From: Microcoleus sp. FACHB-68
GTDB lineage: Bacteria > Cyanobacteriota > Cyanobacteriia > Cyanobacteriales > Oscillatoriaceae
Assembly: GCF_014695715.1 (NCBI RefSeq)
Contig: NZ_JACJOT010000016.1
Location: 1-64,000 of the forward strand
Reading direction: 5' to 3'
Length of the DNA: 64,000 nucleotides
In this document: one piece after another, positions 2,218 to 12,357 of the stretch
Position numbering within the stretch: the first letter of the stretch is position 1
How the letters are laid out: every line of letters starts with the position of its first letter
The notes under the pieces: generated by a model
What the model was told of the DNA's origin: nothing
What the model saw: only the letters and a program-made list of their open reading frames with translations
The model's database searches: none
Position numbers and translations under genes: made by a program

Positions 2218-3048
2218 TTAGTGGTTGTGGTGATACCGGCTAAAGGCCGGCCCATAAGTGGCTAGCAAGTTTTGAGGGGCTAAAGCAATGTCGGGTTGGC
2301 CGGTACACACGACTCTTTGGTTGAGGCAAATAACGCGATCACAATGCCGGCAAATCATATCCAGATCGTGAGAGATTTGCAAAACTGTCCAATTTTGTTC
2401 GCGTTTGAGTTGGTTAAGCAAGGCGTAAAACTCGGCTTCTCCCTGCGCGTCTACGCCGGCAAATGCTTCATCAAGCACTAGCAGCCGGCGTGGCATAACC
2501 AAGCAATAAGCCAGCAACACCCGTTTCATCTGGCCACCACTTAAGGTGCCAATAGCTTGATGACGCAGCCGGTAAGCATCTACTCGATGCAAGGCAGCGG
2601 TTACTGCTGCGACTTTTTCTGGGTTGGTTTGCCAAAACCACTTGAATTTTGGATTTTGATGGTTTAACCCAGCCACCCATCCCAACCCCACCAATTCCCA
2701 GACAGTAATCGGAAATGAGCGATCAAAAAGAAAGTTTTGCGGCACATAGCCGAGTTGGTGGCACAGGTTTCCCAGCCGATCCATAGGCCGGCCTAATATT
2801 TGGATCTGGCCGGCTGTGTGCGGAATTAAACCCAAAACTGCTTGCACCAGCGTACTTTTGCCGGCACCATTAGGGCCAACGATCGCTGTATCTGTTCCGG
2901 GTTGCAACTCAAATGAGACATCCTGAATCGCCGTATAGTTGCCTTGATATACCGTCAGATTTTGTACCTTCAGGATCGGGATCTGGGGATTTGGAGAGGG
3001 TAATGGGCCACCGCTGGGTGGGTCGAGGTTGCTCACATCTATTGACAA
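2218..3048 (-). CDS. znuC: zinc/manganese ABC transporter ATP-binding protein
   Basis: ATPase subunit of a metal-uptake ABC transporter, acting on the cytoplasmic face of the inner membrane. The 276-residue product shows Walker A (GPNGAGKST, about 58-66), the LSGGQ signature (169-173) and Walker B (LLVLDE, 189-194), and is the usual size for the family. Its start overlaps the end of the upstream substrate-binding gene by 10 nt, so the two are surely cotranscribed. The membrane subunit normally found beside them is missing here; a candidate lies at 10871-11731. Zinc is favoured over manganese because of the His-rich loop in the partner protein. Confidence 0.93.
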   Translation of the reverse strand: MSIDVSNLDPPSGGPLPSPNPQIPILKVQNLTVYQGNYTAIQDVSFELQPGTDTAIVGPNGAGKSTLVQAVLGLIPHTAGQIQILGRPMDRLGNLCHQLGYVPQNFLFDRSFPITVWELVGLGWVAGLNHQNPKFKWFWQTNPEKVAAVTAALHRVDAYRLRHQAIGTLSGGQMKRVLLAYCLVMPRRLLVLDEAFAGVDAQGEAEFYALLNQLKREQNWTVLQISHDLDMICRHCDRVICLNQRVVCTGQPDIALAPQNLLATYGPAFSRYHHNH

Positions 3049-4037
3049 GCAGATTCAATGGTTTGCAGATTGGTTTGCATCGCTGTAAAGTAATGCTGCG
3101 GATCGAGCGGGCCAGATTCTAATGAGTCTAGAGGACGCAGGGTTAAGCTGAGGTCTTGGGAAAGACTTTGCAGCAATTTATTATCTACCCCCGGTTCCCC
3201 AAATAGTGCTTTGACGTTGTATTGTTTTACGGCTGCAATGGTTTTTCCCACATCAGCCGGGGAAATGCTTTGTTCTGGGATATTGACAACGGCGACTTGT
3301 TGCAGTTGGTATCGCTTGGCGAGGTAGGGATAGGCGTCGTGGAATGTGACAAAGGTGCAGTTGGGATACTTTTGCATCTGCTGTTTAAACCGGCTGTCGA
3401 GTTGTTCGAGTTGCTGGATGTAAGCAGCAGCATTGGTTTCATAGGAGGCTTTATTGTCTGGATCGGCTGCAATTAAGCCATCGCGAATATTTTGTACCTG
3501 TTGTTTGGCTAAGACTGGATCGATCCAGACGTGGGGGTTGCCGCTTCTGTGTTCGTGAGCATCTTTTGTCTTGTCTTCATTATGGTCATGATCGTGATCT
3601 TCATTGCCGGCACCTTCAATTGGCTTCACGACAGGGGAAATTTCCTGTAAGGTTTGAATGCCTTTGCTTGCCTCTACTTGTTTCAGCTTGGGGTTTTGGG
3701 AGTTTTTTACGGTTGCTTCTAGAAATTCTTCTAAGTCCAAGCCATTTTTAACGAGCACATCTGCTTGTGCTAGTGATCGCACGTTTGCCGGCGTGGCTTG
3801 GTACTCATGCACTTCTGTGCCTGGGGGGATTAAAATTTCTACTTCTGCTTTGTCGCCGGCTACTGCTTTGGTGAACCAATAGATCGGGAGAAAGGTTGCT
3901 ACGACTTTGAGTTGTTTTGAGTTAGATGCTGTATTCTGTGCGCTAGATACGGGTGTGGAGGGGGTTTGGTTGCAGCCGGTGGCGATAGTCAGCAGCAATA
4001 ATGCCGGCAGCAAGCGCTGCAAGTTGGGGCTTTTCAC
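3039..4037 (-). CDS. znuA: zinc ABC transporter substrate-binding lipoprotein
   Basis: Periplasmic metal-binding protein of the ZnuA/TroA family (cluster A-I), 332 residues. A lipoprotein signal ends at Cys22 (TIATGC). Expected metal ligands are visible: His near residue 77 (EVHEYQ) and His near 169 (NPHVWIDP). Between them lies an acidic, His-rich loop (about 146-163, HDHDHNED then DAHEHR), characteristic of zinc rather than manganese binders. It is first in a two-gene operon with znuC and has two Fur/Zur-like boxes 32-73 nt upstream of its start. Confidence 0.93.
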   Translation of the reverse strand: MKSPNLQRLLPALLLLTIATGCNQTPSTPVSSAQNTASNSKQLKVVATFLPIYWFTKAVAGDKAEVEILIPPGTEVHEYQATPANVRSLAQADVLVKNGLDLEEFLEATVKNSQNPKLKQVEASKGIQTLQEISPVVKPIEGAGNEDHDHDHNEDKTKDAHEHRSGNPHVWIDPVLAKQQVQNIRDGLIAADPDNKASYETNAAAYIQQLEQLDSRFKQQMQKYPNCTFVTFHDAYPYLAKRYQLQQVAVVNIPEQSISPADVGKTIAAVKQYNVKALFGEPGVDNKLLQSLSQDLSLTLRPLDSLESGPLDPQHYFTAMQTNLQTIESACQ

Positions 4038-4068: not shown

Positions 4069-4110
4069 TATGATTTTTATTCTAAATGAAGAATGATATT
4101 TATTCTCATT
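4069..4110 (-). promoter_or_regulatory. tandem Fur/Zur-like operator upstream of znuA-znuC
   Basis: Two related 19-nt sites occur in direct orientation, 23 bp apart: TATGATTTTTATTCTAAAT (4069-4087) and AATGATATTTATTCTCATT (4092-4110). The second is an imperfect palindrome with AATGA and TCATT arms. AT-rich palindromes of this sort are bound by Fur-family regulators, and a Zur site is expected before a zinc-uptake operon. The regulator gene is not in the window. Assignment to Zur is inference. Confidence 0.5.
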
Positions 4111-9541: not shown

Positions 9542-10675
9542 ATGCGAATTGCCCTTTTTACCGAAACTTTTTTGCCTAAAGTTGACGGCATCGTGACGCG
9601 CCTGCGCCACACAGTTGAACATTTGCAGCGTGCCGGCGATCAAGTCTTGATTTTCTGCCCCGATGGGGGCTTGCGTGAGTACAAGGGAGCTAAAATTTAC
9701 GGCGTTTCTGGTGTCCCCCTACCGCTGTACCCAGAGCTGAAAATGGCCTTCCCGCGACCGGCAATTGGGCAGCAGCTAGAACAGTTTCAGCCAGATATCA
9801 TTCATGCTGTCAACCCAGCAGTTTTGGGATTGGGCGGGCTTTACTACGCCAAAACTTTAGGCATTCCGTTGGTAGCGTCTTACCACACTCATCTGCCGAA
9901 ATATCTCCAGCATTACGGGTTAGGAATGCTAGAACCCTTGCTGTGGGAATTGCTAAAAACCGGCCACAATCAAGCTCAGCTTAATTTGTGTACCTCAACG
10001 GCAATGGTGCAAGAACTAACAGAACACGGCATTGAACGGGTGGATCTGTGGCAGCGAGGGGTTGATACGGAGATGTTTCAGCCCCATCTAGCCAGCCAGG
10101 AAATGCGCGTGCGCCTCAGCCAAGGCTATCCAGAAAGCCCTTTATTGCTCTATGTAGGGCGGTTGGGTGCTGAAAAAGAAATTGAACGCATTAAGCCGGT
10201 GCTAGAAGCAATTCCCAATGCTCGTCTTGCTTTAGTGGGCGATGGCCCAAACCGGCAAGCCTTGGAACAGCACTTTGCCGGCACAGCCACCCATTTTGTC
10301 GGCTACCTTCAAGGATTAGAATTAGCCGCTGCATACGCCTCTGCCGACGCTTTTATCTTTCCCTCGCGCACTGAAACCCTAGGATTAGTGCTGCTAGAAG
10401 CGATGGCTGCCGGCTGCCCTGCCATCGCAGCGCGTTCTGGCGGAATTCCCGATATCGTCACCGATGGCGTCAACGGCTATCTCTTCAACCCAGAAGATGA
10501 AGATGGGGCAATTGCAGCAACTCTCAGCCTTTTAGCGCATCACGAAGAACGGGAAACCCTGCGGCAAAACGCCCGCCGGGAAGCCGAACGTTGGGGATGG
10601 GCTGCTGCCACAGCGCAACTGCGCCGGTACTATCAAGCCGTACTCGCACCTCAATCGATGCCCAGGGCAGCTTAG
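9542..10675 (+). CDS. sqdX: sulfolipid synthase (SQDG glycosyltransferase)
   Basis: GT4-family glycosyltransferase that transfers sulfoquinovose from UDP-sulfoquinovose to diacylglycerol, completing SQDG. The 377-residue product has the typical N-terminal ETFLPKVDGIVTRL motif, the ASYHTHLPKY segment, and the C-terminal donor-binding part (FPSRTETLGLVLLEAMAAGCPAI, about 277-300). Position right after sqdB supports SqdX over a general mannosyltransferase of the same family. Confidence 0.93.
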   Translation: MRIALFTETFLPKVDGIVTRLRHTVEHLQRAGDQVLIFCPDGGLREYKGAKIYGVSGVPLPLYPELKMAFPRPAIGQQLEQFQPDIIHAVNPAVLGLGGLYYAKTLGIPLVASYHTHLPKYLQHYGLGMLEPLLWELLKTGHNQAQLNLCTSTAMVQELTEHGIERVDLWQRGVDTEMFQPHLASQEMRVRLSQGYPESPLLLYVGRLGAEKEIERIKPVLEAIPNARLALVGDGPNRQALEQHFAGTATHFVGYLQGLELAAAYASADAFIFPSRTETLGLVLLEAMAAGCPAIAARSGGIPDIVTDGVNGYLFNPEDEDGAIAATLSLLAHHEERETLRQNARREAERWGWAAATAQLRRYYQAVLAPQSMPRAA

Positions 10676-10870
10676 GAAATAAATATCATGATGATAAGCT
10701 ATCAATCGTGAGAATTTAAAGCCTAAAGCCATTCAAAAACGACACAACACCAAGTATAAGAATTTGACAACAAGTTTGACGGCTCTTAAATGAGTTCTGA
10801 TAAACTTGGCTCACCATGAGGGGCTAGCGGCTAAGGTTCAATTCTCCATCCTGCCAGTCCTACTGACTTT
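10676..10870. other. spacer with a weak Zur-like palindrome
   Basis: TGATAAGCTATCA (10693-10705) is an imperfect palindrome with TGATA and TATCA arms, upstream of the metal permease. The arm spacing is two bases shorter than the known cyanobacterial 7-1-7 Zur site, so the match is weak. Confidence 0.25.
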
Positions 10871-11731
10871 ATGTATAACACTTCCTACTTCGCCGTCACC
10901 GGCAGCGCTGATTTTTTCAGCTTGTTGCAGTTTCCTTTCATGCAGCGTGCGATCGCCGGTGGCATTCTCATGGGCATTTTGGGAGGCTTACTCGGCAGCT
11001 TTGTCACCCTGAGACGGTTGTCTTATTTCAGCGATGCTGTTGGTAGCGCATCTCTGGTGGGGATTGTTTTGGGCGTCTTAATCAACGTCAATCCAACTTG
11101 GACGCTGCTGCCCTTTACCATTATTTTTGGCCTCAGCGTCCTGTACTTAATTGACCAAACCGATCTAGCCAGCGACAGCGTTTTCAGTATTGCAGAATCG
11201 GGAGGCTTGGCTATTGGCGTCATCCTCACCAGCTTTATCCCCGGTTATCGGGGCAACTTGCTGGCAGTTCTGTTTGGCGATATTTTGGCTATTAATGAAA
11301 CGGATTTAATCTTAATTCTGCTGCTGCTTCTCGCTAGCGCGGTGTTTGTGCTGTCAACTTTGCGACAGCAAATTTTATTAACCTTAAATCCTGCTTTGGC
11401 AAAAGTTCAAGGCGTCTCTGTAGACTTGCACCGATATATATTTGTGGTGCTGCTTTCTCTAACGGTTGCTGTAGCAATAAAAGCTGTGGGAATACTCCTC
11501 GTTAACGCCTTTCTCGTGATTCCTGCTTCCACCGCTAAGTTACTCAGCCACAAATTTTCGCAATTTCTCACCCTTTGTGCGATTCTGGGCGTTTTCAGCA
11601 GTGCCGTTGGCTTACTGGGTTCGGGTCTTTTCAACTTCGCCTCTGGACCCAGCATCGTCCTGGTGCAATTTTTATTATTTGTGGGGATTATGGCTTGGCA
11701 GAAGGGTTTTGCTGTGAGAAGCAGAGTATAA
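10871..11731 (+). CDS. znuB: zinc/manganese ABC transporter permease (ABC-3 family)
   Basis: Integral membrane subunit of a ZnuB/MntB-type importer, 286 residues with about eight or nine hydrophobic segments. Family motifs include RRLSYFSDAVGSASLVGIVLG (about 49-69), where permease meets ATPase, and IKAVGILLVNAFLVIPASTA near 200-220. No ATPase or binding protein lies beside it. The znuA-znuC pair 7.8 kb upstream lacks a permease, so they probably form one transporter encoded at two sites. The znuB symbol rests on that inference. Confidence 0.88.
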   Translation: MYNTSYFAVTGSADFFSLLQFPFMQRAIAGGILMGILGGLLGSFVTLRRLSYFSDAVGSASLVGIVLGVLINVNPTWTLLPFTIIFGLSVLYLIDQTDLASDSVFSIAESGGLAIGVILTSFIPGYRGNLLAVLFGDILAINETDLILILLLLLASAVFVLSTLRQQILLTLNPALAKVQGVSVDLHRYIFVVLLSLTVAVAIKAVGILLVNAFLVIPASTAKLLSHKFSQFLTLCAILGVFSSAVGLLGSGLFNFASGPSIVLVQFLLFVGIMAWQKGFAVRSRV

Positions 11732-11904: not shown

Positions 11905-12069
11905 CTAGTGGCAGCCACAGCCGGTGTGACCGCAGCTTTCTCCGTCAGCATGACCGTTAGCGCAAGCATCGCTACAGTAGGGCTTGCCATCTTTATGTAT
12001 CGCATTTTCAAGGGCAACTACGCACAGGCAAGATTCACAGGCACATTTCATTTGGGTTACAGTGGCCAT
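11905..12069 (-). CDS. smtA: SmtA-type bacterial metallothionein, 54 aa
   Basis: Cytoplasmic zinc-sequestering protein. Reading the minus strand from ATG at 12069 to TAG at 11905 gives 54 residues with nine cysteines (9, 11, 14, 16, 32, 36, 46, 51, 53) and histidines at 40, 48 and 54. This is almost exactly the ligand order of SmtA from Synechococcus PCC 7942, with the signatures KCACESCLC and CGHTGCGCH. GGAG lies about 8 nt upstream of the start, and an SmtB-type palindrome 37 nt upstream. The plus-strand open frame across it is an artefact. No smtB gene is seen in the window. Confidence 0.93.
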   Translation of the reverse strand: MATVTQMKCACESCLCVVALENAIHKDGKPYCSDACANGHADGESCGHTGCGCH

Positions 12070-12105
12070 AACTTTCTCCGGTTCAGTTCTTAATCGGTTA
12101 AATAT

Positions 12106-12121
12106 CTGAATACTTGTTCAG
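12106..12121 (-). promoter_or_regulatory. ArsR/SmtB-type operator for the metallothionein gene
   Basis: CTGAATACTTGTTCAG is an inverted repeat with CTGAA/TTCAG arms, inside a longer imperfect 12-2-12 arrangement. This is the form of site bound by the zinc-responsive repressor SmtB. It lies 37-52 nt upstream of the metallothionein ATG. A further half-site, CTGAACAG, is seen near 12139-12146. The prediction is derepression by zinc. Confidence 0.6.
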
Positions 12122-12357
12122 TCTTTCTTACTATAACACCTGAACAGCGGGCCGGAGGTTTTGTGAGTTGCTTTTAAAAAATCGAGACAAGAATTTATCC
12201 CGGAGATGGAATTGGCAAAGAAGTTGTCGGTGGACTACCGGCAATGAGGTGGGAAAAATGGACAAAGCTGATTGACTGAGGCAAACCGGCTGCCGGCGCA
12301 AGGTAAACTGTAACGGTTTTAAATTTGAGAGTGAATTCAAAATCGAAAATTCAAAAT

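Follow-up and report, generated by a model that had tools for sequence, protein, structure and literature searches.

A metallothionein gene of a Microcoleus genome, its conserved SmtB-type operator, and its probable repression by a remote SmtB-like sensor

We report that a short metallothionein gene in the window, i.e., the whole 64-kb stretch of DNA that was analysed, is very probably repressed in trans by the one SmtB-like sensor of the genome, the product of C8:1637292-1637699. The results obtained by computation are the protein family, the conservation of the operator, and the finding of a candidate sensor with a metal-site signature. In the proposed mechanism, metal-free SmtB-like dimers would bind a 12-2-12 operator around the promoter (12101-12126) and hold transcription low. 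Zn or Cd at the alpha5 site of the sensor, perhaps also at a Cys pair, would then release the DNA, and the metallothionein made as a result would take up excess metal. For binding, metal specificity, and derepression, this scheme draws on homology to SmtB and AzuR, and these steps are to be read as predictions.

The metallothionein gene (11905..12069, minus strand) begins with ATG and encodes 54 amino acids with nine Cys and four His. Judged from its sequence, the product is a prokaryotic metallothionein of the SmtA type: Pfam family PF02069 matches at 93.1 bits (cut-off 33) over profile positions 1-51 of 51, while an NCBIfam search gave no match, and the best solved structure is that of SmtA from Synechococcus (1jjd, E 2.8e-14). 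A sequence-only reading of the region had proposed a short metallothionein gene on the minus strand and had suggested a comparison with SmtA-type proteins, and the homology found in the Pfam and structure searches confirms that proposal. Its description of the metal ligands needs one amendment. All nine Cys and three His pair with SmtA in the 1jjd alignment, as it had stated, but the protein has four His in total, His25 being extra relative to SmtA. Nine Cys, counted over the matched span, also occur in 128 of 150 metallothionein genomes. The closest named relative, a metagenome-assembled genome of Microcoleus vaginatus (WJT46-NPBG5), encodes a protein identical to that of the window, and the 6.5-Mb genome studied here yielded this single metallothionein copy. 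By analogy with SmtA and NmtA, the protein is predicted to buffer Zn and Cd.

The same reading had pointed to an overlapping frame on the plus strand, which is indeed present (11908-12093, 61 amino acids). We rejected it as a gene after a Pfam search returned no match. A frame in the same register is open over 46 codons in 63 of 120 genomes, which suggests a side effect of codon content.

Upstream of the metallothionein gene lies the site CTGAATACTTGTTCAG (12106-12121). Its 14-base core (12107..12120; TGAACA-AG-TATTCA on the minus strand, TGAATA-CT-TGTTCA on the plus strand) stands 37 nt upstream of the ATG and is predicted to be an intact SmtB-type operator. In its 26-base form (12101-12126, minus strand), it is an imperfect 12-2-12 inverted repeat at the promoter, with arms identical at 8 of 12 positions, as is characteristic of SmtB/ArsR promoters. 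Taken by itself, the motif occurs about as often as expected by chance. The core pattern TGAAYANNTRTTCA, with one mismatch allowed, matches once in the window against 0.67 expected, and at 47 sites genome-wide (two of them exact), where the reversed control pattern has 44; enrichment of the motif was rejected as evidence on these grounds. Operator scans consequently need to be anchored on position. What makes the operator significant is its position and its conservation in the metallothionein promoters of the order.

This conservation was assessed in 291 genomes drawn from the order, using one metallothionein locus per genome. A site with at most one mismatch precedes the gene in 166 of the 185 metallothionein-bearing genomes; the best upstream site is exact at 125 loci and carries one mismatch at 41, two at 8, and three or more at 11. 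Such a site was found in 0 of 150 downstream control stretches of 200 bp and in about 0.5 of 120 dinucleotide-shuffled upstream regions, figures that bear out the earlier assignment of the upstream site to the SmtB type. The 150 best-scoring genomes were surveyed first, with upstream stretches of 200 bases; for the 35 added later, the locus was read off the match coordinates and the upstream stretch could reach 224 bases. Controls and shuffles cover the first sets. In three of these 35 genomes (G253, G232, and G209), the metallothionein match (L333, L334, and L335, respectively) spans the C-terminal part of the profile alone, below the cut-off in G209, and the upstream stretch starts inside the gene. 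Two further genomes (G138 and G261) contain two metallothionein matches each, of which one was used. In an alignment of 11 promoters, seven from the family of the window and four from elsewhere, the operator forms a conserved block between diverged flanks. Metallothionein genes with no recognisable operator occur in G269 (L163), G040 (L169), and G137 (L313), of which G269 yielded an SmtB relative and the other two did not; they are possible cases of other control.

Some of these promoters contain more than one copy of the site. Among 150 promoters examined, 137 have a good site, and 33 of these carry a further one with at most two mismatches, located 31-35 bp away in 18 of the 33 by hand count from the list. 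Two relatives of the window's genome, G087 and G104, have a second copy with two mismatches 34 bp upstream of the main site. At the same offset from the intact site, the window has a probable operator remnant (12141..12154, minus strand), in which the right half TGTTCA (12141-12146) is kept and the left half is lost, with four mismatches by eye. The site at 12107-12120 is thus probably the surviving downstream copy of a tandem operator, the upstream copy of which appears to have decayed in the genus of the window. In Anabaena, transcription starts after the main site, whereas in the window a candidate -10 box, TATAGT (12130..12135, minus strand), follows the remnant.

The promoter region was also inspected for sites of another zinc regulator. 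The Zur-box consensus is TGATAATNATTATCA. Between 12060 and 12350, no Zur-box-like site occurs at four or fewer mismatches to it; such a site, with two mismatches, lies instead at 4094-4108, 57 bp upstream of a znuA-like gene. Activation of a cyanobacterial metallothionein by Zur has been published (PMC9337993) and gives a precedent for control by Zur in place of an SmtB-type protein, as with bmtA of Synechococcus WH8102; given the sites found here, we regard this as highly unlikely for the gene in the window.

A repressor of the SmtB type would have to be encoded outside the window. An HTH_5 search of the genome found no ArsR/SmtB-family gene in the 64 kb and placed all four HTH_5 genes on contigs C8 and C6, in agreement with the earlier remark that no smtB is near the metallothionein; the adjacent, divergent smtB of the smt divergon is accordingly missing at this locus. 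One of the four genes is SufR. The earlier suggestion to look for an ArsR/SmtB gene elsewhere led to one SmtB-like gene, C8:1637292-1637699 (equivalent to L051:9293-9700), whose product of 136 amino acids belongs to the ArsR/SmtB family by NF033788 (94.4 bits, cut-off 55) and PF01022 (62.8 bits, cut-off 22) and has SmtB as its best solved relative (1r1t, E 7.3e-32). The motif DxHx10HxxE, described in PMC8790569 as the alpha5 signature of the last helix, is present, with all four residues opposite identical residues of SmtB. The candidate further holds a CxCD pair (in the stretch ELCVCD), resembling the alpha3N motif also described there, together with an N-terminal Cys.

Two other proteins of the genome, encoded at C8:541350 and C8:689422, likewise exceed the ArsR/SmtB family cut-off, and either might in principle use the operator. 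Neither shows DxHx10HxxE in the sequence listed for it, however, and a genome search with the SmtB-like protein itself at E<=1e-15 matched C8:1637292-1637699 alone, which makes use of the operator by one of these proteins very unlikely and leaves the SmtB-like gene as our preferred sensor.

The candidate and the metallothionein gene lie on different contigs of the window's genome. In five relatives of the family (G047, G069, G020, G087, and G104), the two genes share a contig and are 44-76 kb apart; a sixth relative of the family, G136 (66% complete), yielded no SmtB relative. In G069, the sequences that match the C8 end and the beginning of the window are neighbours, which makes a distance of about 68 kb likely in the window's genome. 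The candidate gene itself seems to have no operator of this kind: at the six family loci, the best operator-like site before the smtB-like gene has 4-5 mismatches, and over the 11 smtB loci at the genomic position described below the range is 2-5, the lowest value among the five loci outside the family being 2 (G144). Self-control of the repressor gene was rejected on the basis of these values.

The sequence-only reading had supposed that the repressor acts from elsewhere. Besides the location of the candidate outside the window, this is supported by the survey, in which, on balance, the operator tracks the presence of the sensor in the genome and not its nearness. Among the 291 genomes, 176 have both a metallothionein and an SmtB relative, 9 a metallothionein only, 32 an SmtB relative only, and 74 neither (Fisher P 4e-33, uncorrected for kinship). 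Loci with complete flanks were classed as linked if an SmtB relative lay within 1.5 kb of the metallothionein, giving 91 linked and 75 unlinked loci; 19 of the 185 loci had a cut flank and were excluded from this comparison. The operator, at one mismatch or fewer, occurs at 86/91 linked versus 66/75 unlinked loci (P 0.17). Of the metallothionein-bearing genomes, 162 of the 176 that have an SmtB relative at any location carry it, versus 4 of the 9 that yielded none (P 0.0007); within the unlinked loci only, the figures are 63/68 with an SmtB relative elsewhere and 3/7 without (P 0.003). The genomes are related, so these P values are inflated and independence is overstated. There is also counter-evidence: 14 of the 176 genomes that have both genes are without the operator at this threshold, and the four genomes that keep it where no SmtB relative was found are G136, G163, G024, and G253, with completeness of 66%, 77%, 96%, and 95%, respectively.

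These counts also bear on a further alternative, in which the metallothionein is expressed without metal control and the operator has become a relic. A repressor gene that is not adjacent and an upstream operator copy that has apparently decayed would both suit such a history. The near-equal retention of the site at linked and unlinked loci speaks against it, as does, to a small extent, the identity of the intact copy in three genomes of the genus, where the flanking DNA is so alike that the identity adds little. We consider a relic extremely unlikely and retain remote repression by the SmtB-like sensor as the most probable explanation of the conserved site.

The surroundings of both genes differ between genomes. 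In the window, the metallothionein gene is convergent with a gene for a ZnuB-like ABC-3 family permease (10871..11731, plus strand) that scores below the NCBIfam ZnuB cut-off. Upstream of this permease gene, the best Zur-box-like site is at 10674-10688, with four mismatches to the consensus. A ZnuA-family periplasmic binding protein (3039..4037, minus strand) and an adjoining ABC ATPase (2218..3048, minus strand) are encoded in inverted orientation relative to the permease gene, about 6.8 kb from it. The ATPase is ZnuC-like by place and similarity, and none of the NCBIfam matches listed for it reached a cut-off. The order is the same in G047 and G069, while znuB, znuC, and znuA are together in G020, G087, G104, and G136 of the same family; znuABC is thus split beside the metallothionein in the genus of the window. 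The convergent metallothionein-znuB pair with no smtB next to it is found in all seven metallothionein genomes among the eight sampled in the family. In 14 genomes of families f12 and f32, by comparison, the metallothionein gene is followed by znuB on the opposite strand and then by smtB, with znuC beyond in 11 of the 14; smtB there lies inside the znu cluster, like azuR in Anabaena.

Within the window's family, the six genomes in which smtB was found have it at a position identified by an NmrA-like gene and pdxA. The smtB layouts come from the best 30 of 208 genomes with an SmtB relative, plus larger stretches of some. Both neighbours are present in nine genomes, five from the family (G000, the genome of the window, G069, G087, G104, and G020) and four from families f5, f6, and f10 (G004, G005, G222, and G144); in G047 and G061, the neighbourhood was seen on one side only. 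In the window's genome, the NmrA-like gene is separated from smtB by a CheR/kinase/CheB block of about 5 kb, and CheB also adjoins smtB in G047 and G069. That smtB left the znu cluster recently, within this family, is unsupported, as genomes of f5, f6, and f10 also have it at the NmrA-like/pdxA position. A FastTree phylogeny of 102 SmtB-like proteins, which covers part of the 208 genomes with few alignment columns, neither shows nor excludes a single origin of this position.

Regarding further targets, the second exact match of the core pattern (C13:496596) was dropped, as it is inside a frame of 416 amino acids. Of the 47 genomic sites with at most one mismatch, 29 are inside frames of at least 150 amino acids, and the remaining 18 include the metallothionein promoter; among the rest, no metal gene was recognised from the first residues of the frames concerned. 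Seven P-type ATPase loci and one cation-efflux locus had no site with fewer than two mismatches. In all, we found no other supported operator target in the genome. One P-type ATPase frame of this genome (L341, G000:C6:515596-516060) has a stop codon inside the match. We suggest tentatively, with somewhat less than even confidence, that the sensor may have become a remote repressor dedicated to one promoter, that it does not regulate itself, and that its gene occupies a second conserved position (NmrA-like - smtB - pdxA) in several families; the metallothionein would have remained beside znuB, and selection would keep the operator across tens of kilobases.

These results extend remote control of a metallothionein beyond the single strain in which it was tested: it is likely to be a pattern of the whole order, with 66 of 75 unlinked loci keeping the operator, and the absence of a neighbouring repressor should not be taken as absence of metal control. 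The arrangement is not unusual, because remote repression of a cyanobacterial metallothionein has already been demonstrated for AzuR and nmtA, where the main elements described above have a counterpart: AzuR of Anabaena PCC 7120, encoded far from nmtA, binds the nmtA promoter and dissociates from it with Zn and Cd, the operator there stands 36 nt before the start codon, and nmtA is antisense to a larger frame (PMC8790569). The window's system resembles this one in its unlinked repressor, in the operator distance (36 nt in Anabaena, 37 nt here), in a metallothionein gene antisense to a larger frame, and in the alpha5 signature DxHx10Hx2E of both sensors. It differs in that azuR is inside znuABC, whereas the sensor gene here is between the NmrA-like gene and pdxA and it is the metallothionein gene that adjoins znuB; in addition, AzuR is described as having no functional alpha3N site, whereas our candidate has the CxCD pair and the N-terminal Cys.

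Other cyanobacterial systems share individual elements. With smtA/smtB of Synechococcus PCC 7942, the window has in common the types of metallothionein and operator, 1jjd and 1r1t being the best structural matches. That system is an adjacent divergon (PMC8790569), however, whereas here separate contigs hold the two genes, and no operator-like site precedes the repressor gene. BxmR of Oscillatoria brevis (with bmtA) and ZiaR of Synechocystis (with ziaA) combine alpha3N and alpha5 sites, as our candidate apparently does, but their genes lie beside their targets according to the same source (PMC8790569), in contrast to the remote gene here. Finally, bmtA of Synechococcus WH8102 is, like the gene of the window would be, a cyanobacterial metallothionein gene under a zinc sensor; that system has Zur boxes and activation (PMC9337993), whereas the promoter studied here carries an SmtB-type operator and no Zur-like box.
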